Source: Subtercola boreus
GTDB lineage: Bacteria > Actinomycetota > Actinomycetes > Actinomycetales > Microbacteriaceae
Direction of reading: 5' to 3'
Length of the DNA: 64,000 nt
Assembly: GCF_003399635.1 (NCBI RefSeq)
Contig: NZ_NBXB01000017.1
Coordinates: 1 to 64,000, forward strand
Part shown: positions 3,525 through 39,320 of the stretch, in pieces
How the letters are laid out: the number at the start of each line of letters is the position of its first letter
Position numbering within the stretch: position 1 is the stretch's first letter
Position numbers and translations under genes: made by a program
Notes under the pieces: model-generated
The model's input: the letters and a program-made list of their open reading frames with translations, nothing else
What the model was told of the DNA's origin: nothing
The model's database searches: none

Positions 3525-3525
3525 C

Positions 3526-3699
3526 TCAGGCCGGCCCGATCAGGCCGCGGGTCGGCTCCGCTGGCGCCGCTACAGACGCACCATCTCTTACAGCGACGGC
3601 GTGCGCCCGGCAGATCGCATAGTCTACGAGCAGCCCGTCGTGGTTCACGGTCAGGCGCTCGACTGGGTCGCCCGTGCACCCCTCGACGACGCATTCCAT
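3526..3699 (-). CDS. small Cys-containing hypothetical protein, 57 aa
   Basis: A 57-residue frame from the ATG at 3699, reading 'MECVVEGCTGDPVERLTVNH...DYAICRAHA'. The C-x4-C and later C-x2-H spacing suggests a small zinc-binding knuckle. It is convergent with the DRGH nuclease (one base between the stops) and divergent from the genes to its right. The longer upstream extension of the frame looks non-coding, so the internal ATG is preferred although its ribosome site is weak. Function unknown. Confidence 0.45.
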   Translation of the reverse strand: MECVVEGCTGDPVERLTVNHDGLLVDYAICRAHAVAVRDGASVAAPAEPTRGLIGPA

Positions 3700-3777
3700 G
3701 GTGCGACGGTAGCCGCTGTCAGTGCGCTCGTCTATGGTGAAAGCTCGTCGGCCGGGACGCTCGAGAGAGGAACCCGT

Positions 3778-4128
3778 GTGGCCGACTGGCACCCTGCCAT
3801 GCTCGCCGTGCCCGACCAGTGGGTGCTGAAGCACCCCGCATCACCGAACCCGTGGGCCGTCATCCGGCTGCTGCGGTTCCGTGGTCCGAAGAACGAGGTC
3901 GAGGACTGGTATCGGGTCGTGACATGGCAGGAGACCTCGAAGGGTCGCGAGCTGATCTGCTGGTGCCGGACCCTCGCTGCGGCGTGTGAGGCGGCATGGG
4001 ACTTCAACCGGGCTGCGTCATCGTGGCAGCACGCGCAGGCCGGCAGCAGGGCGCACGAACGTCTGGGAGGGGCGCCGCAGAGGCCGCCGGCGCACGATCT
4101 GCTGGTCGCGTACCGTGCGTCGTTATGA
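3778..4128 (+). CDS. phage-type hypothetical protein, 116 aa
   Basis: A 116-residue protein reading 'ADWHPAMLAVPDQWVLKHP' at the N-terminus, with 'WYRVVTW' and 'CRTLAAACEAAWDF' in the middle. The general look is of small proteins scattered in actinophage and prophage genomes, but I cannot name a function. The GTG at 3778 is chosen because AGAGAGGA lies just upstream and earlier codons look non-coding. Its TGA overlaps the next gene's ATG (ATGA), so the pair is translationally coupled. It may be a prophage moron or part of the flanking accessory island. Confidence 0.6.
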   Translation: MADWHPAMLAVPDQWVLKHPASPNPWAVIRLLRFRGPKNEVEDWYRVVTWQETSKGRELICWCRTLAAACEAAWDFNRAASSWQHAQAGSRAHERLGGAPQRPPAHDLLVAYRASL

Positions 4129-4943
4129 TCAGTCCCATGGCAACGCGAGTATGCGTATTTTGCGGCTCGACACCGTTGACACGCGAACATATCTGGCCGC
4201 AGTGGATGCGGAAACTTGACGGTGTCTCTCCAGCCGCCCTACGAAAGACTCCGCATCCCCACATGATCAGTCGAATGAGACTCGAGCGAGGGGTTCCGAT
4301 TTTCTTCAACCAGCCTCGCGGGATGTCATCGGGGCAGATGCAACTCGTCGCGAAGGCAGTCTGCGCGAACTGCAACAACGGCTGGATGAGCCGGCTTGAA
4401 GACTCCTTTCAGCCCGTGTTCTCGCGACTGAACAGTTGGGAACGGTTCACGCTCACCGACTCGGAATCGGACATAGCGGCCCTCTGGGCCGTGAAGACGG
4501 CCGCCATGTTCCAACAAAATGATCCGGAGACCAGAACCTTTAGTCTGGAGGACCTGCGCGGCCTTCGCGAAACAGGAAAACCACCGCCAAAAACTTCAGT
4601 CTGGATGTTCGCCATGGACTCGGCTGAAGACGAATTCCGGCTGACCCAGCAAGGGGCGCACTTAGGTAGCCCCGAAGACAAGATCGATGCTGCATTCCCT
4701 GCGAGCCTAGGTCAGACATTCCTCGGCGCGCAGCGAGTCGCGTTTGTCGTCGTGCACGGCCCACATCCTCTCATCGACGAGGAACAGCTCCCGGTGCCTG
4801 GTTGGAGAACAGCGCGTTTACTCTGGCCGCGGTTGAAGCCCGCGAAATGGCCAACACTCCCCGCTCAGCATGCGGAAGTGAACGTCCTAAAACTCCTGCC
4901 GGCGGCTGCCTTTGTCCCGGGAGCGTTGTTTCTGGACGAATAA
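4125..4943 (+). CDS. HNH-like zinc-binding protein
   Basis: A 272-residue protein with an N-terminal zinc-ribbon/HNH-like module: 'VCVFCGSTPLTREHIWPQWM' (C-x2-C then R-E-H) and later 'CANCNNGWMSRLE' (C-x2-C-N-N-G-W). This C-x2-C ... H ... C-x2-C pattern occurs in a widespread group of bacterial proteins related to HNH endonucleases, often with defence or mobile neighbours. The rest is unrecognised. The ATG at 4125 shares ATGA with the upstream stop. It is followed at once by a strong hairpin terminator. Whether it still cuts DNA is not clear, since the classical second HNH histidine is not obvious. Confidence 0.65.
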   Translation: MISPMATRVCVFCGSTPLTREHIWPQWMRKLDGVSPAALRKTPHPHMISRMRLERGVPIFFNQPRGMSSGQMQLVAKAVCANCNNGWMSRLEDSFQPVFSRLNSWERFTLTDSESDIAALWAVKTAAMFQQNDPETRTFSLEDLRGLRETGKPPPKTSVWMFAMDSAEDEFRLTQQGAHLGSPEDKIDAAFPASLGQTFLGAQRVAFVVVHGPHPLIDEEQLPVPGWRTARLLWPRLKPAKWPTLPAQHAEVNVLKLLPAAAFVPGALFLDE

Positions 4944-4945
4944 CA

Positions 4946-4987
4946 AGAAGCCCCCCATCCTCTCCGAAGAGAAGGTGGGGGGCTTCT
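4946..4987. terminator. strong hairpin terminator between convergent units
   Basis: A perfect 12-bp stem (AGAAGCCCCCCA / TGGGGGGCTTCT) with a further paired interior lies between the + strand HNH-like gene and the end of the leftward prophage late operon. On the minus strand it is followed by TTGTTATT, so it probably ends late phage transcription; it can also serve the + strand gene. Confidence 0.75.
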
Positions 4988-4992
4988 GTCAA

Positions 4993-5098
4993 TTGGATGG
5001 GTGGGATTCGAACCTCACGAGGCACACGCGAGCGCCCGCCTGATCCCAGCGCGATCGTCTGGGGGCTTCCCGATACAGCCACTCCGGGCCACCATCCT
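4993..5098 (-). tRNA. tRNA-like element, degenerate type II (Ser/Leu-like)
   Basis: Read on the minus strand there is a D-arm-like hairpin (CCCG, loop with AGTGG, CGGG), a long variable-arm-like hairpin, a canonical T-loop (GGTTCGAATCC), and an acceptor-like stem GGATGG/CCATCC. However the anticodon region forms a 9-nt loop without a U at the expected position, and the T stem needs a bulged A. It is therefore either a decayed phage tRNA or an unusual tRNA mimic. It sits downstream of the last tail gene and just before the terminator. Confidence 0.35.
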
Positions 5099-5105
5099 GA
5101 GACGG

Positions 5106-5807
5106 CTACACGGGTGCTGGGCCGAGGGACTTCTCGATGTAGATGTCGGTGAAGCCGAAGTTCGCCGCGGTGCCCGACTCGACACCGACGAAGCCGCCCG
5201 TCGGGTGGTAGTCGGTTGAGACGTCGAGGTACGTCTCGAGGAGGATGTTGTTGCGGAGCATCATGATCTTGTTGCCGTAGGCGCGGATGGCGATCTTGTC
5301 GCCAACCCCGACGATCCACGTGGCGGCCGCGCCGATGAGGGTCGACGCGTTCGTGCGGCGGTACATCTCGATGTAGACGACGCCTGCGAGGTTCACCAGC
5401 TTCATTCGGTACGAGTTCCGCGCCCCGGCCGCTCCGGCAGCCAGGTTCAACCGGATGTCGTAGTAGATCGCGTTCCCGTTCGCCGCCGGCAGGATGGTGA
5501 CCAGCTCGCCGAACTCCTGATCGGCTGCGCTGACGGTGGTCGTCATCTGTCCTGACGTGGTGACGCTGCCTCGCACGATCGAGCCGTTGACGATCGCGAA
5601 GGCGTTCGCGACGTTCGACGTCCAGACGTGCACGGTGCCGTCGTCACCGTAGAGCGCGTCGAGTACTCGCCCGTTGATGTCGGCGGCGTTCCCGCCGGTG
5701 GCACGGTCGGAGGTGATCTGCTCGGCGAGCCACGGGACGTCGGCGTAGGTGTTGCCCGCATCCGGTGTTCCCGCGATGTTGATCACGGTGCCATTGTTGG
5801 TTGCCAT
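5106..5807 (-). CDS. phage tail fibre/adhesion protein
   Basis: A 233-residue protein with no signal peptide, dominated by beta-strand-forming sequence (alternating hydrophobic, Gly, Asn and Thr). The C-terminal part ('MLRNNILLETYLDVS..GGFVGVESGTAANFGF') resembles a jelly-roll, LamG-like or carbohydrate-binding domain of tail fibres. The first ~60 residues look like a trimeric or adaptor stalk. AGGAGG lies 5 nt before the ATG. As the last gene of the late operon, after the SGNH tail protein, it probably makes part of the receptor-binding tip. The role comes from position and composition. Confidence 0.6.
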   Translation of the reverse strand: MATNNGTVINIAGTPDAGNTYADVPWLAEQITSDRATGGNAADINGRVLDALYGDDGTVHVWTSNVANAFAIVNGSIVRGSVTTSGQMTTTVSAADQEFGELVTILPAANGNAIYYDIRLNLAAGAAGARNSYRMKLVNLAGVVYIEMYRRTNASTLIGAAATWIVGVGDKIAIRAYGNKIMMLRNNILLETYLDVSTDYHPTGGFVGVESGTAANFGFTDIYIEKSLGPAPV

Positions 5808-5816
5808 GGGTGCCTC

Positions 5817-7244
5817 CTAAGCGGCGAGGGTGAAGGTGGATGCGTATCGGGAGTACTGCCGCAGCCACGACGCGATGAACGCGGCCATGAGCTGGTGCCC
5901 GAGCGGGTTGAGGTGCACGGAACCGGCGAACCGGAGCGACTGCGGAACGGTGCCCGCAGCGACGTCGGTGTTGTCCTGGCTGGTCGGCGTGAAGCCGGCC
6001 TGATACAGCGCCGCGTCGGCAAGGGCCTGCGGTGACGCGAGGTACCGGCGAACGGGGATGAACCGGACACCCTGCGTGGACACGAACCACGCCTCGAGCG
6101 CGCGGATGTAGTCGCCGTTCACGGTCCCGGCGGCCTCGGAGGCGCCCCGGTCGAGGACTCCCCAGTTCCACCACTCGTCCCGGAACGTCGAGATCTGCGC
6201 CCGGTACCATGTCTGAACATCGAGGACGGTGCGGGTGCCGCCATTGCCAGTGAGCAGCGGTTCGTCGTTGATGCCCATGCCGAACAGTGCGGGGTTGTCG
6301 CGCCACTGGCGGCCGGTGTACGAGTCGATGTAGACGCTTCCGACGGCGACCGCCCCGCCTGCGCTGGTGCGGGTGAAGGTGCGCACGTTCGCGTCGGTGC
6401 GATAGAGGGTGCCGCGGATGCGCTGCCCGGCCGGTGTGACGACCTCGATCTCGTACGAGGCGATGTTCGTGCCACGGAGGGTGTCGGCGGTCAGCCCGGT
6501 GAGCATGACGGAGCCGCCCTGCGCGGGAATGGTCCCGCCCGTGACGGTTGCGTTGACCCGGAGTGCGCCGGCGCGGGCGGTGATCTCGTCTGCACGTGCT
6601 CCGGGCTGGCCGTACTTGCCCATCGTGATGCCGAGCAGCGTGCCAAGCAGTGTTGTCCAGCACTGGTTCGTCGGGTCGGTGAGGTCGGCGCCGAAGGTGG
6701 TCGAGTCGCCGAAGGCGTTCCACGACTTCACTGCGCCTTTGCCTGCGAGGAACGTGCCGTCTCCGGAGAAGAGGTTTCCAGCCCAGTCGAAGTAGGCGAC
6801 GATCTTCCCGCCGATGATGATCGGCAGGGCGTACGGCCAACGCCTCGACATCTGCCGCTTCTGGATCGCGCCCTGCGTGAACAGGCCAGAGTCGCCGGCG
6901 GCCGCGATCGCAGCGGCGGACTCGCGGGGCGGGTTGCCCTTCAAGTCCGTCTGCAGCCACGTCAGTTTGCCGCCGAACGTAAACACGAGGCCTCGGCCCC
7001 ACCTGCGCGTAAGCGAGCGGGCACCCTTCACGATGCCTGCGTTTCCGAGCTGAGCCGCAACGGCCGTGACAGCGGCACCCGTCACGATTCCGCTCGTCGC
7101 GGGGTCAGCGAGAGCAGACGAGACGAGCGGGTCAACGATGCCCTTCGCTGCGTTGCGGGTGAGGCTGTCTTCTGTTTCCAGAAGGTCAGCGGTAACCGCG
7201 TCGTTCGCGTACTGAATGCGCCCCTTGGGGATAAGTCCGACCAT
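5817..7244 (-). CDS. tail protein with SGNH/GDSL hydrolase domain
   Basis: A 475-residue protein. Residues 1-160 are a phage-type stalk; residues ~170-460 carry SGNH hydrolase blocks: 'AFGDSTTFG' with the nucleophile Ser181, 'GMGINDEP' with the G-x-N-D block at 324-327, and 'SVHLNPLGH' with the catalytic His near 444. The spacing between the first two blocks is long because a Thr/Gly-rich beta segment (~225-315) is inserted. SGNH enzymes remove acyl groups from surface polysaccharides, so this may deacylate host glycans during adsorption. Its start follows the upstream stop by two bases. The target glycan is unknown. Confidence 0.7.
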   Translation of the reverse strand: MVGLIPKGRIQYANDAVTADLLETEDSLTRNAAKGIVDPLVSSALADPATSGIVTGAAVTAVAAQLGNAGIVKGARSLTRRWGRGLVFTFGGKLTWLQTDLKGNPPRESAAAIAAAGDSGLFTQGAIQKRQMSRRWPYALPIIIGGKIVAYFDWAGNLFSGDGTFLAGKGAVKSWNAFGDSTTFGADLTDPTNQCWTTLLGTLLGITMGKYGQPGARADEITARAGALRVNATVTGGTIPAQGGSVMLTGLTADTLRGTNIASYEIEVVTPAGQRIRGTLYRTDANVRTFTRTSAGGAVAVGSVYIDSYTGRQWRDNPALFGMGINDEPLLTGNGGTRTVLDVQTWYRAQISTFRDEWWNWGVLDRGASEAAGTVNGDYIRALEAWFVSTQGVRFIPVRRYLASPQALADAALYQAGFTPTSQDNTDVAAGTVPQSLRFAGSVHLNPLGHQLMAAFIASWLRQYSRYASTFTLAA

Positions 7245-7246
7245 GC

Positions 7247-7735
7247 TTACGCCGCCTCGAAGTAGTTGATTTCGCCCTCAGGGGCGGCCGTCCAATACAC
7301 ATCAGTGCCAGGCGACAAATTGCCGACGTCGACGAGAAGATCCGCATACGTGGGTGCGGCTGAGAAGTAGAGAGCGTCTGAGTTGGTTGGGGCGTCGAGG
7401 ATGTCTTCGAGCGTCCCCCCGCCCACAGGGACGCGCATCTGCCATTGCACGAAGTCCATGCCGATACTGTTGTTTGCGGAGTCCAGCCACTCGATGCGCG
7501 GGTAGTACCGCAGCGACCCGTCAGGCACCCCGTAGAGGGTGTCGGATGCTTCCAGGTTGACGGTGAAGGCGCCCGTTGAGGCGTTCGAGATAGTCGCCTG
7601 AACGCGTTGCGTGACAAACAGGTGATCGCCTTGCACCGCATTCCCGGTGGGCACGAAGAACAGCCTCAACCCGGGAAGTGTCGTCGCGGTTCGGGCGTAG
7701 GTTGTGATGAACCCGGTGATCGTTTCGAGCGCCAT
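7247..7735 (-). CDS. minor tail protein, 162 aa
   Basis: A 162-residue beta-rich protein without transmembrane or signal features. It includes 'TVNLEASDTLYGVPDGSLRYYPRIEW' -like strand patterns (shortened here: residues ~55-80) that suggest a fibronectin- or adaptor-type domain connecting fibres to the baseplate. It is separated from the lysis genes by a terminator and lies directly before the SGNH tail protein, so it probably belongs to the fibre module. No firm family assignment. Confidence 0.55.
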   Translation of the reverse strand: MALETITGFITTYARTATTLPGLRLFFVPTGNAVQGDHLFVTQRVQATISNASTGAFTVNLEASDTLYGVPDGSLRYYPRIEWLDSANNSIGMDFVQWQMRVPVGGGTLEDILDAPTNSDALYFSAAPTYADLLVDVGNLSPGTDVYWTAAPEGEINYFEAA

Positions 7736-7754
7736 GCGACCCCAATCTGGGCAT

Positions 7755-7782
7755 GAAAAAAGCCGCCCAGATCAGGACGGCT
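7755..7782 (-). terminator. rho-independent terminator after the lysis cassette
   Basis: On the minus strand AGCCGTCC / GGGCGGCT forms an 8-bp stem (one wobble) with a 6-nt loop, followed by six T. It separates the lysis genes from the fibre genes and may reduce fibre expression relative to upstream tail genes. Confidence 0.75.
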
Positions 7783-7803
7783 ACGAGAGGTGAGAGGTGG
7801 TGG

Positions 7804-8040
7804 TCAGTCGCCGAGAGGTGCAGCGGTTCGGCTTCGCGGGTTCGCACGAGCCTGATCGGCCCATGTCGCCTTGACCCACTCGGGTGGGTGTTCCACCCAG
7901 TCCGCGACTGCGCCGATCAGGCGGTCGCCACCAGCCGTGTACGCATCGGAGGGCGGGGTGCAGTTGTTGCGGATGGATGCCACGATCGACTCCACCGTGC
8001 TCTGAACGACGAGGTTGATTTCTTCTTGTGTCTGAGACAT
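7804..8040 (-). CDS. small hypothetical phage protein, 78 aa
   Basis: A 78-residue soluble protein, 'MSQTQEEINLVVQSTVESIV' at the N-terminus, predicted largely helical, with a Trp-rich centre (DWVEHPPEWVKATW). AGGAG lies before the ATG. It follows the holin-like genes in the lysis cassette and is the last gene before a terminator. It may be a lysis accessory factor, but no family is recognised. Confidence 0.6.
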   Translation of the reverse strand: MSQTQEEINLVVQSTVESIVASIRNNCTPPSDAYTAGGDRLIGAVADWVEHPPEWVKATWADQARANPRSRTAAPLGD

Positions 8041-8064
8041 GTGATGCTCCTGTCTGGCTAAGGG

Positions 8065-8409
8065 TCAGTCGCCGAGCTGCTGGTTGATCGCGTGACGCGC
8101 TGACTCTGCGACGCTCTCAGCGCTCACACCTGCGGGCGGGTAGATCGTCTGATTCAGGGTCGTCGTGTTCGTGGGCGTGACGTTCGCGGTGTTCGCGAGG
8201 GCGAGACCGCCGATCGGCACACCGAGATACGCGAGAACCGAGAGTGTGACGGTGAGCCAAGTGGGCTGCCCGCCAAGGTCAGGGTTCGCGAACGCGACCT
8301 GCACGCCGCCGACGAGGACAAGGGCGAAGACATACGTCGAGTAGATTCCCTTCCTGATCGCAGCGGAGGTGATGATCGTTCCGAGGTTGCCGGGGTTTGG
8401 GGTGCTCAT
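8065..8409 (-). CDS. holin-like membrane protein (two TM)
   Basis: A 114-residue protein with two hydrophobic segments (about residues 25-42 and 50-72) separated by a short loop containing 'NPDLGGQPTW'. The polar C-terminal tail has a run of Thr/Asn. This size and topology resemble actinophage holins encoded directly after the endolysin. GGAG precedes the ATG. Holins form the membrane lesion that starts lysis. The assignment rests on topology and on clustering with the M15 endolysin and two other membrane genes; which of the three is the true holin is unresolved. Confidence 0.65.
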   Translation of the reverse strand: MSTPNPGNLGTIITSAAIRKGIYSTYVFALVLVGGVQVAFANPDLGGQPTWLTVTLSVLAYLGVPIGGLALANTANVTPTNTTTLNQTIYPPAGVSAESVAESARHAINQQLGD

Positions 8410-8417
8410 GGTGTCTC

Positions 8418-8717
8418 CTAGATAGTTTCGGTGGGCCAGGGTGCGGGTGCGATCCCGGCTTCGTTCAGTTGGCGTCGGAGCACTGATGCGTACTCTTCGG
8501 TCTTGCGGCGTTTCTTCGCTTCAGCATCGCGTTCGGCGTTCGCTTGGTCGCGTTCCTCGATCGCTGCGACCCTCTGCGCCTCGAGGCTGGTATTCCTGAC
8601 CCGTTCGCGACCCGCGGAACCCGAAAGCTGTTTGAAGACGCCTTGGATGAGAGCGAGGAGAAGGGCACTGCCGCCACCTGCGCCGAGAATCGTGACCAGC
8701 AGTTGACCGGTGTCCAT
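8418..8717 (-). CDS. single-TM coiled-coil lysis protein
   Basis: A 99-residue protein with one N-terminal hydrophobic segment (residues ~5-26, including Ala/Gly-rich 'GAGGGSALLLALIQG') and then a charged coiled-coil (EAQRVAAIEERDQANAERDA). Such single-TM coiled-coil proteins commonly sit beside holins in actinophages and may be holin partners, antiholins or spanin-like factors. GGAGG lies upstream of the ATG. The lysis role is inferred from its location between two other membrane genes downstream of the endolysin. Confidence 0.6.
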   Translation of the reverse strand: MDTGQLLVTILGAGGGSALLLALIQGVFKQLSGSAGRERVRNTSLEAQRVAAIEERDQANAERDAEAKKRRKTEEYASVLRRQLNEAGIAPAPWPTETI

Positions 8718-8720
8718 GTG

Positions 8721-9134
8721 CTACCTCCGTGGCGCGAGTTGGTAGCGGCGAATCTCCATCCAACGGATGACCAAAAAACCGATGAGCATCAATGCCACAG
8801 GGAAACCGATAGCGGACGTACCCAGAACAACGATGATGACCATGTACATGAGCAGGCCGGTTACTGCGGCGATGATGCCGCCACGTTCCAACCACCACAC
8901 CCCAGGTAGCACAGCGACCGAACCAAGTAGCCCGCCGACCGCGAGGAACGTGCCGAACACGATCACCAGTCCGGGGCCGAGTACCTTCATGATTCCGTTC
9001 GACGGGGACTGAATGACCAGCAACCCTGCCGCAAGGAACGTGATGTAGATCGCGAACATGATGAGCCGGATGACTCGCGGTTCTGCGATGAGTTCAAAAA
9101 CGAAACGGAAGCCCTGTTGCAGAGTCTTCGTCAC
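8721..9134 (-). CDS. four-TM membrane protein in lysis cassette
   Basis: A 137-residue integral membrane protein with about four hydrophobic helices (residues ~23-43, 50-75, 83-103 and 105-125) and a basic C-terminus. It starts at a GTG after GAAGGGGG. It is the first gene after the endolysin. Four-TM proteins in this position are widespread in actinophages and are annotated variously as holins or unknown membrane proteins; a lysis role is likely but not proven. Confidence 0.6.
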   Translation of the reverse strand: MTKTLQQGFRFVFELIAEPRVIRLIMFAIYITFLAAGLLVIQSPSNGIMKVLGPGLVIVFGTFLAVGGLLGSVAVLPGVWWLERGGIIAAVTGLLMYMVIIVVLGTSAIGFPVALMLIGFLVIRWMEIRRYQLAPRR

Positions 9135-9164
9135 GGTGCCCCCTTCCGAGGAGAGAGGGGTGGG

Positions 9165-10001
9165 TTACGGCTCCTGGTAGAACGAGTTGAACGTCGCCCA
9201 GCCGTTCTCGTCGAGGAAGACCACCTTGTCGAAGGTCGGAAGCACGGGCGCTTCGCCACCGTTCGCGTTGATGGTGTCGCAGATGGTCTTGAAGGTGCCG
9301 TACTCGTCAGCGCTGCGGAAGATCCTGCGGCCCCGCTTGCCAAGACGTGCGGGCTCTGCGATGCCGTCCTCGACGAAATCGGCGCCGAAGATCGCAATCC
9401 CACCGTCAGCGGTGCGGCCTGCGATGGTTGCGGAGGGCTTCAGCTTCTGCACGGTGTCTGCTGCGGCCGCGGTGACTGCGGTCTTGATGTCGGCTACGTC
9501 CTGAGCGCTCATGTCGTCTTCTCCTTGTGTGTGTCGAGCATTGAACTGGGCGACCGTCAGGCTGAGCGGATCGCCGATGAAGTTGAAGTGCCAGGGCTCG
9601 CGCGAGGGTTCGCCGACAAGCTCCCACGACCAGCCGTGGTTGTGTCCGGTCTCGACGAGGATGTCGTGCAGCTCCATCCGGGCCGAGTAGACGGACGACA
9701 GGACGTCGCCGGCGGTCCACTCGCCGTGCGTTGAGGTTTTCGGCTTCGCGGCCGGGAAGAATCCGGGCCTACGATTCACCCATCCGTCGTAGAGGTAGTC
9801 CTGGGTCGCGATGTCCCGGCCGGTCTCGGAGAACCGGATGTGGATGCCGGTGCGTCCGAAGAATTCGGCGTCCCATGCGAGGAACGCCGCGGCCGCTGCA
9901 GGGTTGAGGCGCAGCTCCTTCTGTCCGAACGTTCCGATGACGACCGTGAGCGAGTTGGGTACCTCGCCGTTCTCGCACTTTGCCCAGTTGACCCATGCCA
10001 T
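9165..10001 (-). CDS. endolysin, M15 (VanY-like) peptidase domain
   Basis: A 278-residue lysin. The N-terminal ~150 residues form a peptidase M15 domain with 'STHGEWTAGD' at 90-99 (the S-x-H...A-x-D zinc site, with Trp where Gly is usual) and 'EPWHF' at 135-139 supplying the third ligand. M15 lysins cut D-Ala-D-Ala or L-Ala-D-Glu bonds in peptidoglycan peptides. There is no signal peptide, so release depends on the neighbouring holin candidates. The C-terminal ~120 residues ('RTADGGIAIFGADF', 'RSADEYGTFKTICDTI') do not look like LysM, SH3 or PG-binding domains and may be a new wall-binding module. Confidence 0.85.
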   Translation of the reverse strand: MAWVNWAKCENGEVPNSLTVVIGTFGQKELRLNPAAAAAFLAWDAEFFGRTGIHIRFSETGRDIATQDYLYDGWVNRRPGFFPAAKPKTSTHGEWTAGDVLSSVYSARMELHDILVETGHNHGWSWELVGEPSREPWHFNFIGDPLSLTVAQFNARHTQGEDDMSAQDVADIKTAVTAAAADTVQKLKPSATIAGRTADGGIAIFGADFVEDGIAEPARLGKRGRRIFRSADEYGTFKTICDTINANGGEAPVLPTFDKVVFLDENGWATFNSFYQEP

Positions 10002-10012
10002 GTGCTTCTCCG

Positions 10013-10840
10013 TTACTTGTAGACGCGGCCGTCAGAGCCGAGATAGAGCGGCGTGATCGTGACCCCGCCAGGTGCGGTCGTGATGCCCGGGAGATTCAGG
10101 GCATTGCTGACGAGCAGGCCACCGTTCAGGACCGCGCGCCCATTGCCCAACGAGAACGTCACCGTGACATCAGGTGCAACAAAGCCGAGATTCGGGCCGG
10201 ACGCGAAAACGGAGCCGCCGGGATTGAAGTTGATACTGCCGCCGCCGAGGGCAAGAGGTTCGATCTGCACCCCCGCTCCGACGCGGAGAATGCCGGGGGC
10301 AACAATGTTGATGTCACCCTTTTGTGTCGTGGTGCCGTTGTTCTCGATGTTCCCGGTGTGCTTCTCATTGCCGGTGTGCTCTTCTTCGCCGGTCTGTTTG
10401 AACTTGCCGGTGCCCTCGTAGTCGCCCTGCTGGGTCGTCTTACCGATGTTGGTGACATCGCCGTTGTTCGTCGTCGCACCATTGTTGATCGCGGTGCCAT
10501 TGTGAGTCTCGTTACCGGTGTAGGTCTGGATGCCCGAGTGCGACTCGTTGCCGACGTGCGTCTCCTGCCCGGTGAACCCGGAGGGTCCGGAGACAGTGAG
10601 CGACCCGGTGACGTTGATCGTCGTCGTCAGGTTCACGGTGCCGTCAGCGTTCAGCGTGCCCTGCACATTCAAGGTGCCGAAGACATCCTCGGAACCGTTC
10701 ACGATCAGCGACGACTCACCATTGAAACGGGTCTGACCACCTGACACGGAACTGTTACGGAGCGGAGTTGCGACACCCTGTTCCTGAGGGGCAGACACGA
10801 TCTTGTCGAGCTCGCCCTGATCGGTGCGTTCGATTCTCAT
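10013..10840 (-). CDS. minor tail protein with hexapeptide Gly repeats
   Basis: A 275-residue protein whose core is strictly periodic: between residues 49 and 175, Gly occupies 21 of 22 positions spaced exactly six residues apart (Thr at 73 is the exception). Hexads read like T-H-V-G-N-E and I-N-N-G-A-T. This implies a repetitive beta-structure, such as a trimeric triple-stranded beta-fibre or a left-handed beta-helix, forming a tail needle or fibre shaft. N-terminal ~45 residues may dock to the baseplate and the last ~95 form a non-repetitive tip ending 'LYLGSDGRVYK'. Its ATG overlaps the preceding gene's stop (ATGA). Confidence 0.75.
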   Translation of the reverse strand: MRIERTDQGELDKIVSAPQEQGVATPLRNSSVSGGQTRFNGESSLIVNGSEDVFGTLNVQGTLNADGTVNLTTTINVTGSLTVSGPSGFTGQETHVGNESHSGIQTYTGNETHNGTAINNGATTNNGDVTNIGKTTQQGDYEGTGKFKQTGEEEHTGNEKHTGNIENNGTTTQKGDINIVAPGILRVGAGVQIEPLALGGGSINFNPGGSVFASGPNLGFVAPDVTVTFSLGNGRAVLNGGLLVSNALNLPGITTAPGGVTITPLYLGSDGRVYK

Positions 10841-11940
10841 TCGGACCCAATCGGTTGCAGAACAGGAGTTACCCAGCGCGTCTCATCGCCGGACCAACCG
10901 ATGACCCGGAGTGTGTGCCAGCCGGTCTCGATGATCGGGCTGCCCTCGAACCACAGCTTGTGTAGCGTCCCGAGAGGCTGGTATTGGATCGAGTCAAGTT
11001 GCAGCCGGTACGACCACTGCTCGACGGGAGAGGAATAGGTTTTCAGGTCAGCGTCAGCGTGCGACTGCAGAACCGTCTCGTCGCCGATCTTCTTGTACTG
11101 GACGAACTTCTCGAGCGCCGGCGCGAAGGATTCGTTCTTCGCCGTCTTCACTTTCATGTCAGCTTCAGTGCCCTCGCCGACCGCGTAAATGTAGGTCGCC
11201 TGGTTCTTCCCGTCGACCGTCCGCTTCACGTCAACGAGACCGTGATTCGAGGTCGCAAGGTTGAACTCAAGCAGAGCGCCCGTCAGTTGCGGGTTAGATG
11301 CTGTGCCTGCACGCATCCGGTACTCGAGCTTGTGCGTCGGTCCCCACTGAGGCAGGAAGTCGATGTCAGGTCCGCGGTCGCGGTTCTGCGCCTCAGTCAT
11401 TGCCGAACCCACAACCGTGGACTGGTAGTCGAAGTACGTCTCGCTCTCCGTACCGCCACCGGTCGTCGTCCCCTTGGCGATAGGGATGATCGGCAGTCGG
11501 AAGCTCGGATTAGCGAGGGCAGGCGCTTCCGTCCCCGCCCACAAAACCCACGCCGCCAAACGGTCGGCCGTGATGTTGACGAGCTCGAGCTTGTTGTCAG
11601 GCGTGCCGCCCGAGTATCCATTCGTGCCGAACGTTGAACGCCGATCCAGAAGAACCCGGATGTCCTGATGCTTCAGGCTGATCGTGTTCGACCCGATGTC
11701 GTCATCCCGCGAAATACACAACCCCGCATAGATGACCACACCTTCCTCGCACACAACGAACGTGCGAGACCACGGCGTAAGCAGGTCGTTCCAGTTCAGG
11801 TTTGGGCCGACAGCGGAAATACGGAAGTCCGCGTTCCCACCGCCGGCACCGTTCAGAACCCGGTTCCACGAGTACTTGAACGGGGTAACCTGCGCCAGAA
11901 CCGTGCCAGTGACCGTCTCAGCGATGTAGCAGGTCTGCAC
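10837..11940 (-). CDS. baseplate hub / Gp37-like minor tail protein
   Basis: A 367-residue protein resembling the 'siphovirus ReqiPepy6 Gp37-like' group of tail-associated hub proteins: the N-terminal 'F.YSWNRVLNGAGGGNADFRI', followed by 'VIYAGLCISRDDDIGSNTISL' -type segments, fits the early strands of hub domains that cap the tail tube. It follows the Dit-like gene, the standard order Dit then Tal/hub. It starts at a GTG preceded by AGGGGGC. No clear peptidase motif is visible, so a wall-degrading function is not claimed. Confidence 0.7.
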   Translation of the reverse strand: MQTCYIAETVTGTVLAQVTPFKYSWNRVLNGAGGGNADFRISAVGPNLNWNDLLTPWSRTFVVCEEGVVIYAGLCISRDDDIGSNTISLKHQDIRVLLDRRSTFGTNGYSGGTPDNKLELVNITADRLAAWVLWAGTEAPALANPSFRLPIIPIAKGTTTGGGTESETYFDYQSTVVGSAMTEAQNRDRGPDIDFLPQWGPTHKLEYRMRAGTASNPQLTGALLEFNLATSNHGLVDVKRTVDGKNQATYIYAVGEGTEADMKVKTAKNESFAPALEKFVQYKKIGDETVLQSHADADLKTYSSPVEQWSYRLQLDSIQYQPLGTLHKLWFEGSPIIETGWHTLRVIGWSGDETRWVTPVLQPIGSE

Positions 11941-11948
11941 GATGCCCC

Positions 11949-12704
11949 CTAGATGTATGTGTCGGCTACCGTCACCGTCATGACCCCTGTGCCGCCCGAA
12001 GGCGCGAGAGTCTGCGAAACCGTCTGCCCCGGTGGGACAGCCCAGATACCCGCCTGCTCAACAACCCCGTAGACCGGGAAGCCGTCAACAATCAGCAGCC
12101 CCGAGTCCATGAAGATCTGGTGCGGATGACCGGCCGTGACCGCCTTGTTGACCTGGTACGTCTTCCCGCCGGATGACACGGAGTACGACGGCATCGAACC
12201 GGTGATCGTCAGGACCGGGTACGCGGCATAGTTCCCGTACTGCCACGCCGACACAACCAGCGGGGTAGCAGGGTCGGCCGTGAACGTGTACGACTGGCCA
12301 TACTTCCGCGGGTCAGCCGCCCAAAATTGGATTTGATAGGAAGCCCGGTAGCCCCACAACTCGACTTGAAATTGTGTTTTGGTGGCCAACCGCACAGAAG
12401 CGCTTGTAGTCAGTCCCGCATAATCGACAACAAGCCGCGCTGCGCCCCCGTCCGCTAGGGCGCCGCTCAGTTTTCGCTGGTAGTAAGCCAGCTTCTCTGC
12501 GGAATCGGCGTGGCAGTCGCCAGAGATTGAAATGACCCGGGATGAGAAGTACCCGACTGCATCGAACGAGCCCGCCGCGAGAGGTTTTTCGGCCTCGTCG
12601 CGGCGAACATCGGGTGTCGAATCCCAGCCAGTCATCTCAGTGACGTAGAAGCCGTCAGAACCGGAACCGCCATCGAACAACAGATCGTTGATACGTGCGA
12701 TCAC
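11949..12704 (-). CDS. distal tail protein (Dit-like)
   Basis: A 251-residue beta-rich protein immediately downstream of the tape-measure gene, the usual place of Dit. Features such as 'FYVTEMTGWDSTPDVRRDE', 'ISGDCHADSAEKLAYYQRKL' and 'QIQFWAADPRKYGQ' match the Dit/tail-component layout, in which an N-terminal beta barrel is followed by a galectin-like domain. Dit forms the hexameric ring joining the tail tube to the baseplate. It starts at a GTG overlapping the tape-measure stop (GTGA), indicating coupled translation. Confidence 0.75.
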   Translation of the reverse strand: MIARINDLLFDGGSGSDGFYVTEMTGWDSTPDVRRDEAEKPLAAGSFDAVGYFSSRVISISGDCHADSAEKLAYYQRKLSGALADGGAARLVVDYAGLTTSASVRLATKTQFQVELWGYRASYQIQFWAADPRKYGQSYTFTADPATPLVVSAWQYGNYAAYPVLTITGSMPSYSVSSGGKTYQVNKAVTAGHPHQIFMDSGLLIVDGFPVYGVVEQAGIWAVPPGQTVSQTLAPSGGTGVMTVTVADTYI

Positions 12705-15700
12705 TTCGCCATCGCCAATCGCCAGTTGAGGTCGTTCGCTGCCGTTTGTCCGATAACGCGTTCATCGGTTCCGGCAGCCGGGTAGACATTTACGGTCGCG
12801 TGCTTAGAGGAGGTAGCGACACTTCCCGAGCGACCTGCTGTATCTGCGTACTCACGAGCGCCGCCGAGCCGGTTCAACGCATCCAAAGCGATCGCCCGGT
12901 TGCGCGTCTCCTGCCCGGGCTTACCCGAGATGAAGCCCTCCCACGGCACGTTCTTCTCCGCGAACTTGTAGATCGCCTGCGGTCGTCCGGCATAGATCCC
13001 TGTCGGGAGCCCGCCATTCTCGAATGCCTGCGCTCGACCAGCAGCAAACAAGTTCCCGTTCTCGTTGACGGTCTGACCGCCAGAACCGCCCGGGCCCTGA
13101 GCGATACGGAAGTTGTAATCGCCCGTCGCCGCTCGGATCTGAGACTGCAATGCAGAGATCTTCTCCGAAGCCGTCGCCGTGTTCACGTCCAGTGTCGGCA
13201 CGTAGCCGGCGACCTTCAGCTTGTACTCGGTCATGATCTGCTCGACCGTCGCAGTACCAGCCTGAAGCTTGCCCGCAATCTCATCCGCGACGCCCTGCCC
13301 GAGCTGGGCGGCAGCGGCCGCGATGATCGGCCCGGAGCCGCTCAGCGTGTCAGCGAAATGTCCGGTCGCCTCGGAGGCCTTTTCGGTGAGTAGGCCGTCG
13401 AGCTTTGCCAGTTCGTCACCGGAAGCAGTGACAAGCTGCGCGACCAGGGGTGCCCCTCCAGGACCCATCTTCGCGAGCTCATCCAAGGTGCCTTGCGACA
13501 CCTTCCCGGAGAGCTTCAGCATGTTCGATTCCCAGTTGGTCTGAGCGTCGACCTGCGACTGGAGATCAGCGAGATAGTCGGACACGGAGACGGAGATCCC
13601 GTCGTAGTAGTCCTTCCATGAGTCGGTAGAAGAGTCCGTTGCGTCAGCCGTCGACTGCGCGACCTCCTGGTTCTTCGCGATCACAGCGTCATAAGCCGTC
13701 TGAAGCCCGACGAAGGACGAATCGGCTTCCGAAACCATCTTCAGCCAGTCGTCGGTTGCCTGCTTGGCCGCTTCCGTCGCTTTCGCCTGCTCCTCCGTCG
13801 CAACCGTGGTGGCCGCGACCGAATCCCGGAACGCCTGCTGAGCGACGGACCCCTTGCCCATAGCAAGGTTGAGAACGTTCTGATCCGAAGCAGCCTGACC
13901 ATTCGCGGTCAGGATGTCGATCAGCGCGGCCTTGTACTCCGGCATGACCTGAAGCAGCTTCTTGGTCGCTTCCTCGCCGCCACCCATCGCTGACACGAAC
14001 TGCTGGAACTGGTCGTTCGCGCCCTTGAAATCCGTCTTGGCGGTCGTCGCGAGAGTTTGGCCGAGCTGCTTGAACTGGGCCTCGTTCTTCGTGATCCCGT
14101 TGGCCAGATCTTTGATGGCAGGTGCGACGAGGCCAACTGTGTTCGCGAGGCCATTCCAAGCCGTCTTGTTGATCTGGTAGATGAACCCGTCGAGGCCGGA
14201 GGAAGTCAGCTTGCTAGCCGCGTCCGCCATCCCGTTAGTCGCGTTCGTCGTCCCCTGCATGCCCGTGAATAGGCCGTCGAGGTCTGTCGAGGATGTGCCG
14301 AGCTGCTTCACGGCATTGTCGAGCTTCGCGAGGTCGACGCTGGTCAGTTCGGCAACGTCGCCCGCATGGGACATGGCCGTCGCAGCCAGAGCAAGCGCCG
14401 CGAGAACGAGGCCTCCCTTACCGAACGATTTGGCGAGACCGAGACCGGTGAGGTTCATCTCCTGCATCGCAAGCCGAGTCGCCGCGATCTTCGGGACGAC
14501 GGTCAGAAGACCACCGCCGAACAGACCAACAGCGGCCGTGGTTGCCGTCAGGCCAAGACCAACCGCAAGGATCGGACCGGGCAAGCCGCCAATAGTATCC
14601 GTGGCGCTCGTGAGCGACTGGACGAGGAACCGCAGCACTTCGTTCGCCGACGAACCGGTCTGAATCAGGCCAGAGTCCACCGAGCCGGACAGGTACTCAA
14701 GGTCACCGGAGAGGTTGTCTAGCTTCAGGCGTGCAGTCTCAGCCGCAAACCCAGCGTCGTTCACTTTGTCATTCCACGACTGGATACCATCAGCACCCTG
14801 CGCATACAGAACAGACGCCGAGCGGACAGCATCCGAGCCGAAGATCGTAGCGAGGGCAGAGTTCCGCTGCTCATCCGTCAGCCCACCGAGCTTCGTCTTG
14901 AGCTGTTCAGCGATGCCCGAGAACTCGAGCATCTTGCCCGAAGAGTCGTAAACGTTGATGCCGTACTCCTGCATCACGCTGGCAGCCTTGGTAGAGGGGT
15001 TCTCTAGCGCGAGCAGCATCGTCTTGAGTGACGTGCCCGCGTCGGAACCAATCAGGCCGGCGGAAGCGAATGCCGCGAGAACGCCAGTGGTCCCCTCGAT
15101 CGACTGACCTGCCTGAGAAGCGACAAGGCCACCCTGATTGAGTGCCTGTGCGAGGTCATCGACGGAACCCTGCGCCTTGCCGGCACCAGCCGCGAGAAGG
15201 TCAGCGATGTGAGGCACCTCAGAGCCCGCAAGCTTGAACTGGGTCATCGCTGTAGCCGCGTACGTCGCAGCGTCCGCAACACCGAGCCCGCCCGCCGAAG
15301 CGAGATCCATCGACCCCTTCAGCGCGCCACCGAGGATGTCGGCAGTCGCAACGCCAGCCTTGGCGAGCTCGTTCTCTGCGTCCGCTGCTTCCTTGGCCGA
15401 GAACACTGAATCTGCGCCAGCCTTGATCGCTGCCTGCCGCAGCAGGTCCATGTTCGATGCCGACTCGTGCGTTGAGGCCTGCACCTCAGACATGGCCTTG
15501 TCGAACTCCATGAACTTCGAGACCGCGAGACCGACCCCAACAGCGGCAAGGGCGCCGACGGCGAGAAAACCTTGTCCGGCCTTCTGCATGTTCTCGCCGT
15601 TACGGGCGAGGTTCTGGGCCTCGGTGTTTGTGGTTCGCGTTGCAGCGGCAGCCCGCTCCATGCCCGACACATACTGTGCGACCTGCGCAGTGAGGGCTAC

Positions 15701-15721
15701 GCGTACGGTTCTCTCGGCCAA
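12701..15721 (-). CDS. tail tape measure protein
   Basis: A 1006-residue tape-measure protein, by far the longest phage gene, which sets tail length. The N-terminus 'AERTVRVALTAQVAQY' and residues ~60-330 match the TP901-type phage minor tail domain ('FDKAMSEVQASTHESASNMDLLRQAA', shortened here to its first residues). Hydrophobic Ala/Gly/Val segments follow (residues ~375-450), then a long helical region and a C-terminal portion. The TTG at 15721 is preferred because GGAGG lies 5 nt upstream; the in-frame ATG 21 bases earlier overlaps that ribosome site. A + strand gene begins just beyond its start. Confidence 0.9.
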   Translation of the reverse strand: MAERTVRVALTAQVAQYVSGMERAAAATRTTNTEAQNLARNGENMQKAGQGFLAVGALAAVGVGLAVSKFMEFDKAMSEVQASTHESASNMDLLRQAAIKAGADSVFSAKEAADAENELAKAGVATADILGGALKGSMDLASAGGLGVADAATYAATAMTQFKLAGSEVPHIADLLAAGAGKAQGSVDDLAQALNQGGLVASQAGQSIEGTTGVLAAFASAGLIGSDAGTSLKTMLLALENPSTKAASVMQEYGINVYDSSGKMLEFSGIAEQLKTKLGGLTDEQRNSALATIFGSDAVRSASVLYAQGADGIQSWNDKVNDAGFAAETARLKLDNLSGDLEYLSGSVDSGLIQTGSSANEVLRFLVQSLTSATDTIGGLPGPILAVGLGLTATTAAVGLFGGGLLTVVPKIAATRLAMQEMNLTGLGLAKSFGKGGLVLAALALAATAMSHAGDVAELTSVDLAKLDNAVKQLGTSSTDLDGLFTGMQGTTNATNGMADAASKLTSSGLDGFIYQINKTAWNGLANTVGLVAPAIKDLANGITKNEAQFKQLGQTLATTAKTDFKGANDQFQQFVSAMGGGEEATKKLLQVMPEYKAALIDILTANGQAASDQNVLNLAMGKGSVAQQAFRDSVAATTVATEEQAKATEAAKQATDDWLKMVSEADSSFVGLQTAYDAVIAKNQEVAQSTADATDSSTDSWKDYYDGISVSVSDYLADLQSQVDAQTNWESNMLKLSGKVSQGTLDELAKMGPGGAPLVAQLVTASGDELAKLDGLLTEKASEATGHFADTLSGSGPIIAAAAAQLGQGVADEIAGKLQAGTATVEQIMTEYKLKVAGYVPTLDVNTATASEKISALQSQIRAATGDYNFRIAQGPGGSGGQTVNENGNLFAAGRAQAFENGGLPTGIYAGRPQAIYKFAEKNVPWEGFISGKPGQETRNRAIALDALNRLGGAREYADTAGRSGSVATSSKHATVNVYPAAGTDERVIGQTAANDLNWRLAMAK

Positions 15722-15742
15722 AATAACCTCCAAGAGACGCAA

Positions 15743-15766
15743 TATGTGGTTGTAGGCTCACGGGCA
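15743..15766 (+). promoter_or_regulatory. possible leaderless promoter for the opposite-strand moron
   Basis: A TAGGCT hexamer at 15753-15758 ends 7 nt before the ATG at 15766, and no ribosome site is visible upstream of that ATG. This geometry fits a leaderless transcript beginning at or next to the ATG, common in actinobacteria. No convincing -35 element is seen. Confidence 0.35.
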
Positions 15767-16020
15767 TGACGAGCGACGAGAAAGACGCCTACGCGCCGGC
15801 GGAACGCCAACCGAGCACCGGAACGGCGTTCATCGTGTGGGGTGCGATCCTGTTGCTGTTCGCACTACTCCAGGTCGTCACGATTCCGGCGTTTTTGATC
15901 GACGACTTCACCAGCGCCGGTCTCGCAGGGAAGCTCTTTGCGGCGGTTGCTGGCGTGGGGTTTGGGGTGCTTCTGCTCGTCAAAGGCATCAATAGGCGCG
16001 GTCGCTACCTGAGGCGCTAA
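15766..16020 (+). CDS. two-TM membrane protein (phage moron)
   Basis: An 84-residue protein with a polar N-terminus (~20 residues), two hydrophobic segments (about 21-47 and 53-75) and a basic tail (RRGRYLRR), predicting two transmembrane helices. It is the only + strand gene within the leftward structural operon, placed between the tail chaperones and the tape measure, and overlaps the chaperone gene's end by 4 nt. Such insertions usually have their own promoter and are expressed in lysogeny. Superinfection exclusion is an attractive role for a small phage membrane protein, but is inference only. Confidence 0.65.
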   Translation: MTSDEKDAYAPAERQPSTGTAFIVWGAILLLFALLQVVTIPAFLIDDFTSAGLAGKLFAAVAGVGFGVLLLVKGINRRGRYLRR

Positions 16021-16445
16021 CGCTCGATCCGCGGCGTGTAGAACCACCCCGACTGATCCTGATGCTCATATGTCTTCGCGTCAGAGTCGCGGCGCTGTTT
16101 GACAGCACGCGCCATCAGGTCGACCTCAAGGTCAACAACGATGCTGTCTCGAATAGCCGGGTCAGTCGCTAACGAGTAAGGCACCCCGAACGGGTTCAGA
16201 TCAGCCTGGCGCTCCACGGAAGCAATCAGATAGCCGACCTGCTCCGCATCCCACTCAGCTTCAGTTGTGGTCACTGATCGGACGAGTCGGCCTTCTTCGT
16301 CGTACTCGTGCGACGTCGTGCGGCGCGGTTCCCACCCGTAGAGCCTTCGGAGGCTGACACCGAGTTCTCGAGCGAGGCGAGCTTCACCGTCGAGGCGGCG
16401 ATCGAAGCTTTTTTTAGGCGCTCCGTGAGCTGCCTGGGGTTCCAC
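16017..16445 (-). CDS. tail assembly chaperone, frameshift-encoded part (gpT-like)
   Basis: This frame has no ribosome site of its own and is expected to be read as the C-terminal extension of the upstream chaperone through a -1 shift on the A7 run at 16409-16415. After the shift the sequence continues 'KKSFDRRLDGEARLARELG' and ends 'GWFYTPRIER'. The open frame extends to 16445, but only the part from about 16415 leftward should be translated. Tail chaperones G and GT bind the tape measure and recruit tail-tube subunits. The arrangement is conserved in long-tailed phages. About 132 residues of the upstream protein plus ~130 here form the fusion. Confidence 0.8.
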   Translation of the reverse strand: MEPQAAHGAPKKSFDRRLDGEARLARELGVSLRRLYGWEPRRTTSHEYDEEGRLVRSVTTTEAEWDAEQVGYLIASVERQADLNPFGVPYSLATDPAIRDSIVVDLEVDLMARAVKQRRDSDAKTYEHQDQSGWFYTPRIER

Positions 16446-16804
16446 TCATTCAGGCCGAAAATCGCGTCGCACACCGCGACAAAGTCGGGGCCAGACAGGG
16501 AAGTGAGCATCTTCTGCCACTGCTCAGGCGTCAATACCGTCTCGGTGTCGCCGTCGAGATATACGCCACTGATCGGTGCGGCTTCCTGGCAGACATCATG
16601 GACGTCATAACCGACGTAGCGATCTGTCGGGGCCTCAGGGTCGGCGGGGTTCCGGGAGGTGATCCCAGCCCATACCGTGCCGTCAGGGATCTCCGAGAAG
16701 CGAAGCGTTACCAGCTCGCCACCGAACACCACCGGAACGTCGATGCGATCGGGTTCGGCTTTCTGCTCCTGCTGTTTGGCATTGAGGTCATCAAACGAGG
16801 TCAT
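16271..16804 (-). CDS. tail assembly chaperone (gpG-like)
   Basis: A 177-residue chaperone encoded between the major tail protein and the tape measure, the conserved position. The body (residues ~20-125) is a compact acidic domain with 'LTPEQWQKMLTSLSGPDFVAVCDAIFG' -like helices (only the start is quoted as evidence: LTPEQWQKML); the C-terminus is Ser/Arg/Lys-rich, typical of the unshifted form. Codons 130-132 (CTA AAA AAA) form the slippery site for the -1 product. Normal translation ends here; a minority of ribosomes should yield the longer GT fusion. Confidence 0.85.
   Translation of the reverse strand: MTSFDDLNAKQQEQKAEPDRIDVPVVFGGELVTLRFSEIPDGTVWAGITSRNPADPEAPTDRYVGYDVHDVCQEAAPISGVYLDGDTETVLTPEQWQKMLTSLSGPDFVAVCDAIFGLNEWNPRQLTERLKKASIAASTVKLASLENSVSASEGSTGGNRAARRRTSTTKKADSSDQ
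16409..16415 (-). promoter_or_regulatory. programmed -1 ribosomal frameshift site (A_AAA_AAA)
   Basis: On the minus strand the zero-frame codons CTA AAA AAA GCT contain a perfect X-XXY-YYZ heptamer of seven A. A -1 slip re-pairs both Lys tRNAs fully and continues AGC TTC GAT (Ser-Phe-Asp) into the downstream open frame. Confidence 0.8.
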
Positions 16805-16845
16805 GCGTTCCTCCCACGGAATAGCCCACGGATAGAGAGATGAAG

Positions 16846-27138: not shown

Positions 27139-27225
27139 GGCTGCTCCTGACGGTTACACGGTTACTAACCGTCATATGTTTGTGAGCGGCCGACGAAAGG
27201 CTACGTGCACCCCGAACCGGCCTAG

Positions 27226-27296
27226 CTCTCCACCAAGGATTCGAACCTCGACAAGTTGGCTCAGAACCAACCGTGATGCCGTTACACCAGCGGAGA
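27226..27296 (-). tRNA. phage tRNA-Gln(CTG)
   Basis: A full 71-nt cloverleaf on the minus strand: acceptor TCTCCGC/GTGGAGA (one G-U pair), anticodon stem GTTGG/CCAAC with loop TTCTGAG giving anticodon CTG, and T-arm CGAGG-TTCGAAT-CCTTG. The 3' CCA is not encoded. It decodes CAG, the main Gln codon in high-GC genes. It lies between early and late modules. Confidence 0.9.
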
Positions 27297-37653: not shown

Positions 37654-37809
37654 AGCTGACTAGGTGGCGCAGCTGCCATTCCAAATCGCCGGTGTAGCAA
37701 ATGGGTCAATTCCCACGCGGAGGGTGGGGTAGGGTCTCATCTCGTGCCAGGACGGGGAAACAGACATCAACAGCCATGGGGGATTGCGCCGGTTGGGCCG
37801 AGGTCTCCG

Positions 37810-38589: not shown

Positions 38590-38646
38590 ATCACTACGCG
38601 GGCTGTGGCGTTTCCTCAGGATCAAGTTCTAAACTCGGGAAAAGAG

Positions 38647-38820
38647 ATGGGAGCTAAATTGACTTTGACACCGATGAAGGTAAAGCCCCGCAAAGCCCAG
38701 CTGAAGAACCTTCGTGATCCGAAAGTTGTCGCTCAAGTGAGGCGTGAAGCGCGAGCGGCTGTGCGCGACGAGCGTACGCGCCGCGCACTTCGAAGGCTCC
38801 GTTCTGCAGTGGGCTTTTAG
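38647..38820 (+). CDS. small basic protein, 57 aa
   Basis: A 57-residue very basic protein ('[20 protein letters not shown]' and '[17 protein letters not shown]'), without TM or Cys. The ATG at 38647 has GGAAAAGAG upstream. It resembles small ribosome- or DNA-associated basic proteins but no family is recognised. Followed by a strong terminator that closes this region. Confidence 0.5.
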
Positions 38821-38840
38821 AAGACTCACGGAATAGCAGA

Positions 38841-39265: not shown

Positions 39266-39320
39266 CAAGACCCACCAGCAGCATCCGTTCAACAGTTTCG
39301 ATCCACAGGAGATTTTTCAC

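Follow-up and report, generated by a model that had tools for sequence, protein, structure and literature searches.

A strict six-residue glycine repeat in a minor tail protein of a Subtercola boreus prophage, most likely a trimeric tail-tip fibre

A gene on the minus strand of the 64,000-nucleotide stretch of Subtercola boreus DNA analysed here (contig NZ_NBXB01000017.1; hereafter the window) encodes a protein in which glycine recurs at a spacing of exactly six residues, and this raises the question of what kind of structure such a chain builds and where in a phage particle it belongs. A sequence-only reading had taken the repeat for the shaft of a continuous beta-helix or a trimeric beta-fibre in a siphovirus tail. 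The answer that we favour, and regard as probable with some room for doubt, is that the gene encodes a homotrimeric tail-tip fibre, a minor tail protein of a Microbacteriaceae siphovirus, whose hexads form an interlaced triple-stranded beta-prism.

The hexad period and its gene

The open reading frame 10013-10840 encodes 275 amino acids on the minus strand. The sequence-only reading had the frame and its pattern right and left the strand unstated; the plus strand, read in the same register over 10013-10840, yields no Gly-hexad protein. A 249-residue ATG frame on the plus strand of the window (9995-10744) lies antisense to the hexad gene.

On recount, of the 22 positions that lie six apart from residue 49 to residue 175, 21 are Gly, exactly as had been claimed. 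The sole exception is Thr at residue 73, and the 17 consecutive hexad starts from 79 to 175 are all Gly. Gly makes up 47 of the 275 residues; when the protein was shuffled 5000 times, with the best phase and the best of the periods 5, 6 and 7 taken for each shuffle, the top count was 13 of 22, reached in three shuffles. Other periods between 2 and 12 collect at most 12 Gly in the real protein, except for 14 at period 12, a harmonic of six. Likewise, identity among the non-Gly residues of 46-178 peaks at lag 6 (26/127) and lag 12 (25/121), compared to values of 2-16 at the other lags up to 20.

The residues between the glycines had been described as rich in Thr, Asn and His. For Thr and Asn this is true throughout, whereas for His it fails before residue 95. 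The seven hexads of residues 49-90 contain no His and are hydrophobic at position 3 in five cases and at position 5 in six, whereas in the 14 hexads of residues 91-174 no column is hydrophobic more than four times and position 5 is His, Asn or Gln in 12 (His in five). In the DNA of the gene a direct-repeat family of 16 bases or more was not found, and there are two weak 18-bp tandem patches of about two copies each. The DNA repeat is eroded, and the hexad repeat is a pattern of the protein and not a recent DNA expansion.

Table 1. Parts of the hexad gene and the tail genes upstream of it, in window coordinates
Feature	Position	Strand	Basis
Hexad-repeat minor tail (fibre) gene, 275 aa	10013..10840	-	ORF and translation
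Residues 1-48, N-terminal anchor	10697..10840	-	AlphaFold2 and alignment; similar anchor in family members
Residues 49-180, 22-hexad array, 21 starting with Gly	10301..10696	-	period count
Residues 49-90, first 7 hexads, hydrophobic positions 3 and 5	10571..10696	-	column counts
Residues 91-174, 14 hexads without hydrophobic column	10319..10570	-	column counts
Residues 103-126, four hexads missing in the S. boreus P27444 homologue	10463..10534	-	alignment
Residues 181-258, divergent C-terminal domain, candidate distal domain	10067..10300	-	DNA identity bins; low pLDDT
Residues 259-275, C-terminal ending	10016..10066	-	17 residues identical in the S. boreus P27444 copy
Tal/baseplate-hub-like minor tail gene, 367 aa	10837..11940	-	PHROG 1885 minor tail protein, E 1.7e-38
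Dit-like minor tail gene, 251 aa	11949..12704	-	PHROG 5577 minor tail, E 4.5e-35; PHROG 33 Dit, E 1.6e-9
Tape measure protein, 1013 aa	12701..15742	-	PHROG 4704, E 5.4e-77; PF10145, E 5.3e-47

The gene is part of a siphovirus-type prophage that spans about 4338-37653 of the window. The viral contig IMGVR_UViG_2837060743 carries a 100% identical copy of the hexad protein and may be the same prophage; the part of it that was fetched matches window 4338-16840 exactly, and at a length of 33316 its full span would end at 37653, which is the end of the integrase frame 36364-37653. A search for an attachment site compared 3500-5900 with 36300-39400 and found that the two share no exact direct repeat of at least 14 bases. 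The minus strand carries, in order, the genes for terminase, portal, head maturation protease, scaffold, major head protein, adaptor and major tail protein, and after the latter those for the tape measure, the Dit-like protein and the Tal-like protein, which overlaps the start of the hexad gene by four bases. The Tal- or hub-like identity of this upstream neighbour is one that we infer from gene position, and a sequence search of its product against solved structures returned only four weak matches of the enoyl-CoA hydratase type. The gene order and the synteny in relatives back the assignment to a siphovirus tail made from the letters alone; a PHROGs scan of 30 frames of the window showed no sheath family.

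Several other features of the prophage region may be recorded here. A tRNA-Gln (ctg) gene lies at window 27225-27296 (minus strand). A second tail-fibre candidate at 5817-7244 (minus strand) matches PHROG 11419 (tail fiber, E 1.8e-28) and has a weak resemblance to GDSL lipases. The gene 3' of the hexad gene, at 9165-10001 (minus strand), has weak PHROG endolysin matches and VanY matches below the cut-off; its DNA identity to the copy in S. boreus P27444 is 0.45-0.58 over the first ~480 bases and about 0.85-0.89 thereafter.

Relatives of the protein and the length of their arrays

The homologue of the hexad protein in S. boreus P27444 (67% in the best segment, 77% in the alignment) is identical to the window protein over the first 76 residues, and a congener of the source genome has a frame whose sequence appears identical. 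The P27444 copy has 16 hexads versus 21 in the window protein, the difference falling as a block of four and a single hexad within residues 151-162. DNA identity between the two copies is 0.83-0.99 in the bins of the Tal-like gene, and within the hexad gene it falls from 0.93-0.95 over the initial 240 bases to 0.53-0.76 in the C-terminal part; the two Subtercola copies differ in their C-terminal domain and are conserved in the Tal-like gene and the N-terminus.

The order of tape measure, Dit-like, Tal-like and hexad gene is that of Glutamicibacter phage BIM BV-113. There BV113_00540, annotated as a hypothetical protein, follows the Tal-like gene and has a similar anchor, 18 hexads and a similar C-terminal ending. 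It shares 26.6% identity with the window protein and, unlike the latter, is hydrophobic at position 5 in 18 of 18 hexads. When four BV-113-like proteins, the window protein not among them, were combined into a profile (A4), it matched the window gene with E 2.2e-14, indicating that anchor and array are homologous to those of the BV-113 family. The profile finds matches in eight of 396 genomes of the order, the source genome among them; of these eight, L279 and L280 are frames of low complexity, and on parsing L278 shows no clear array. The A4 alignment also retrieved 22 viral-contig loci, the last three of which (L270-L272) are not clear members.

Members of the family have in common an N-terminal anchor, the hexad array, a cap after the array and often a similar C-terminal ending, the pattern of which was matched in eight of 25. 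A Tal-like homologue stands immediately upstream in 20 of 23 family loci, the window's own copy counted. Over all loci examined the figure is 20 of 26 (E 1.4e-14 or better), and half of the six loci lacking such a neighbour, namely L165, L133 and L189, had been included as unrelated comparisons. Measured from the N-terminal anchor to the C-terminal cap, which was sought near the array end and is not recognisable in six of the 25 members, the array comprises 7-17, 20 or 21 hexads in the remaining 19. Taken modulo three, these counts leave remainders of 0, 1 and 2 in five, six and eight members, respectively, and these are not independent draws because the members are related.

A strict six-residue period is not special to the S. 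boreus prophage protein. The sequence-only reading had proposed to check related phages for the same period, and similar hexads do occur there, in the BV-113 family, and also in the tail fibres of phages unrelated to it. At E<=0.01, a search with one family member retrieved 174 phage records, the majority from Synechococcus and other cyanophages, and among the matches listed many are annotated as structural or tail-fibre proteins; another matched 26 phage records, mostly of Klebsiella phages, many of them annotated as tail fibres. A scan of the collection for Gly codons every 18 bases gave at least 80 loci, which a script classed as 68 collagen-type, seven other Gly-rich and five neither; the last group contains a single fibre-like relative, L018. 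A second scan, in which Gly at hexad positions 3-5 was excluded, likewise gave at least 80 loci; its 80 together with L018 and L250 make up the 82 loci parsed, one of them without a frame. Tail-like proteins were chosen by eye from these 82, many others of which look low-complexity; as samples, the 15 proteins of A3 and the 27 arrays of the lag test described below, both picked by hand, are biased.

The source genome itself holds a second hexad protein with 12 hexads and a different anchor (contig C45, ~90585-91025; L004/L276), which presumably sits in another prophage. Two relatives, L252 and L274, have an extra long C-terminal domain of ~115-150 residues with similarity to PHROG 1786 and 19653 ('minor head protein'). 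We took these C-termini to look S74-like, but this was not confirmed: Pfam gave no S74 match at E<=0.01, and a PDB search, made for L274, did not bear it out. PF13884 was found in none of four records of relatives, and Peptidase_S74 is absent from the Pfam list of the window protein at E<=1. In a literature search on six-residue repeats, triple-stranded fibres, collagen-like or Gly-rich actinophage tail proteins and Subtercola prophages, none of the papers listed deals with the hexad protein in its title or the opening of its abstract.

The monomer model and other readings of the array

The protein was modelled with AlphaFold2 as a monomer on five aligned rows, with a mean pLDDT of 63.5. In the anchor the model predicts a helix at residues 8-16 and, ahead of the array, two two-residue strands at 32-33 and 36-37, with low confidence (pLDDT block means of 39-50 over residues 1-40). 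Each of the 17 hexads starting at residues 79 to 175 is predicted to contain a strand of three to four residues, and the means of ten-residue pLDDT blocks are 73-85 over 81-170, highest (85) at 121-130, and 65 over 171-180. No strand is assigned to the hexads of residues 49-78, the first five, even though their pLDDT is about 69-80. Disorder or a lack of periodic beta structure, named in the sequence-only reading as the outcome that would speak against it, did not appear in the monomer model, and the predicted periodic beta structure holds for 17 of the 22 hexads but not for the first five.

In the model the strands are paired within the chain into a single-chain beta-helix. It superposes on 4wa0 with Z 14.3 and an rmsd of 1.9 A over 138 residues, and on the bactofilin 2n3d with Z 11.2 and an rmsd of 2.5 over 103; the rmsd for 4wa0, 6n2b and 2n3d lies at 1.9-2.9, compared to ~12-14 for the rows of GlmU and LpxD. 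The single-chain helices on which the model superposes (4wa0 and others) are ones that we take to be right-handed. Neither TP901-1 nor gp5 chains are among the structural-match rows. A control for this outcome is L189 (IMGVR_UViG_3300042988_000066), a spike-type protein with 13 hexads of similar residues (GDYKQQ, GNFELV): modelled as a monomer it also shows self-paired hexad strands and has 4wa0 at rank 4, with a low mean pLDDT of 47. Foldseek E values exceed 0.1 against the PDB for both models and 0.004 against BFVD for the model of the window protein. Because the spike-type control pairs with itself as well, the monomer model appears to say little on how the chains are arranged.

It is nevertheless possible, at perhaps one chance in six, that the array is a three-sided, bactofilin-like beta-helix of one chain, in which three hexads form an 18-residue coil, about seven coils in all, and which is a monomer or a side-by-side trimer. 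Two lines point in this direction: the monomer model, with the structures 4wa0, 6n2b and 2n3d that it matches, and a scan of ten relatives in which three (L273, 2.1e-5; L274, 0.0033; L189, 0.0088) gave Bactofilin matches under the cut-off. However, one of these three, L189, is itself a spike-type protein, and Bactofilin (PF04519) has no match to the window protein at E<=1. Monomer modelling is blind to strands exchanged between chains, as the low-confidence result for L189 illustrates, the array lengths show no preference for steps of three hexads, and in residues 91-174 no column offers more than the four hydrophobic residues in 14 already noted. The number of layers depends on this choice: the 22 rungs of the sequence-only reading require every hexad to form a single layer of a trimer, whereas a single chain would have about seven coils.

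A further comparison of hexads within arrays turned out to be non-discriminating. Over 27 arrays, lags of two and four hexads show raised identity and a lag of three does not (z -1.1); in a thinned set of 15 arrays, z is +5.1 at lag four and +1.6 at lag two. In a control of seven arrays, presumed left-handed helices, lag three is not raised either (z -2.6), and the test was therefore dropped as a discriminator for three-sided coils. As a separate observation, the raised identity at lag four (24 residues) is seen in L008, L257, L273, L189 and other arrays, and the larger gap of the P27444 copy also amounts to exactly four hexads. Segmental duplication may account for the raised identity, and several of the arrays are related.

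In our judgement it is rather unlikely that the array is a Gly-rich linker, collagen-like or flexible, that lacks beta structure. Such a linker is suggested by a match to PHROG 1806 ('collagen like minor tail', E 0.0075), by Pfam Collagen at E 0.86 (9.9 bits, below the cut-off of 27.2), by NCBIfam matches to Scl adhesins that fall far under the cut-off, by the low hydrophobicity of residues 91-174 and by the first five hexads, for which no strand is predicted. However, Gly recurs every six residues and not every three (the best count at period 3 is 12/22, compared to 21/22), the array contains a single Pro, at residue 86, and the model predicts a strand in every hexad from 79 onwards, including the block of highest confidence. 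That the gene belongs to a dead prophage and its product is never built into a virion seems very improbable: the hexad frame is intact, the N-terminus is shared unchanged with the P27444 homologue, and there are long open frames for the head, packaging, tail and integrase genes.

A proposed interlaced trimer and its polar core

The reading as a trimeric fibre is the most likely one, and is favoured over the single-chain helix on several grounds. The neck of the TP901-1 RBP, a published six-residue repeat with a solved structure, is an interlaced trimeric prism: in the part of the published account that concerns it, the neck has a six-residue repeating motif and forms a beta-prism interlaced from three chains (PMC3893620). 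As in the window array, Gly starts each unit of this prism (residues 40-63; GDETIA/GKKTFT/GNVEVN/GSLTLP in the PDB alignment). The same part of that account describes the RBP as a homotrimer in a siphovirus tail tip with a helical part ahead of the prism (PMC3893620), comparable to the helix predicted before the array of the window protein. In contrast, the TP901-1 neck has four hexads and the window protein 22, and position 5 is hydrophobic in all four of the former but mostly His, Asn or Gln in the latter from residue 91.

A profile of 37 hexad fragments from the 15 chosen proteins, with TP901-1 left out, was compared with the PDB at E<=10 and matched 10 distinct sequences, every one of which bears the name of a phage baseplate, BPP or tail-fibre chain; the individual matches are weak (E 0.16-3.7). 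By name or by the same matched segment, we take seven to be TP901-1 or chimeras, two Tuc2009 and one PhiTE. Other searches of the PDB did not retrieve TP901-1: the full-length window protein found only a Natrinema pilin (E 0.01) and its first 85 residues only a lectin (E 0.5), both of which we regard as matches of composition; the family profile A4 found a designed protein (0.33) and LpxD (2.3); and a gapped hexad alignment of 37 columns (A5) gave five matches, none of them phage proteins.

L189 provides a second ground. Its 13 hexads are flanked on one side by a PF18352 phage domain (E 3.2e-19) and on the other by a match to GpV Apex that falls narrowly below the cut-off, and solved spikes carry a trimeric helix between such a domain and the apex. 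L189 also matches solved tail-tip or puncturing proteins (E 1.2e-8 and 4.5e-7), mainly through its N-terminal domain. In contrast to L189, neither PF18352 nor the apex motif was found in the window protein with Pfam. The trimer is preferred, furthermore, because array lengths ignore multiples of three, as a step of 120 degrees would be neutral for a threefold trimer but would turn the ends of a single-chain triangle against each other, and because residues 91-174, lacking a hydrophobic column, are hard to square with a single-chain helix.

In the proposed fibre, the N-terminal ~48 residues would anchor the protein to the Tal/hub trimer encoded just upstream. Each hexad would contribute one short strand and a Gly turn, and three chains would wind about one axis with one layer per hexad, so that the number of hexads would set the length of the shaft. 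Beta-strands are spaced 4.7-4.8 A apart, and 22 layers would correspond to a shaft of ~10 nm. The C-terminal ~90 residues would form a distal variable domain, probably meeting the cell surface, and the fibre may serve adsorption. An adsorption fibre seated in the hub fits the locus because of the position after the Tal-like gene, the predicted N-terminal helix and the divergent C-terminal domain beside conserved neighbours. A comparable arrangement is described for gp30 of mycobacteriophage Mysterious, a central fibre seated in the hub trimer, with an N-terminal trimeric coiled coil followed by short strands (PMC13252515, a preprint). Only the first 64 residues of gp30 are resolved (PMC13252515), and the likeness drawn here is one of description.

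A polar interior has a parallel in the central spike of T4. The parts of the published account that deal with the trimeric gp5 helix describe hydrophobic, polar and charged residues inside it and a buried hydrated Mg ion (PMC4576200). With the proposed fibre this beta-helix shares a short Gly repeat, three interwound chains and a mixed polar interior, whereas it differs in its eight-residue VxGxxxxx repeat and in being a puncturing spike of a contractile tail (PMC4576200). We therefore entertain, as a tentative and on balance doubtful extension, a modular family whose length is tuned per trimeric layer (7 to 21 hexads) and in one member of which, the window protein, stacked layers of His, Asn and Gln, possibly metal- or anion-binding, replace an oily core, so that bound ions would fold or stiffen its long shaft.

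The strict hexad is a known kind of phage shaft that recurs widely, and the idea of a trimeric fibre is probably right; the length and the His/Asn/Gln-rich core are somewhat unusual features of the window protein. The protein offers a long and very regular six-residue beta repeat, and its relatives of 7-21 hexads form a natural length series, useful for understanding how sequence sets the length of a fibre and what a polar core does. Likewise, a hexad array directly after a Tal-like gene is a cue for recognising tail-tip fibres that are annotated as 'hypothetical' in related prophages.
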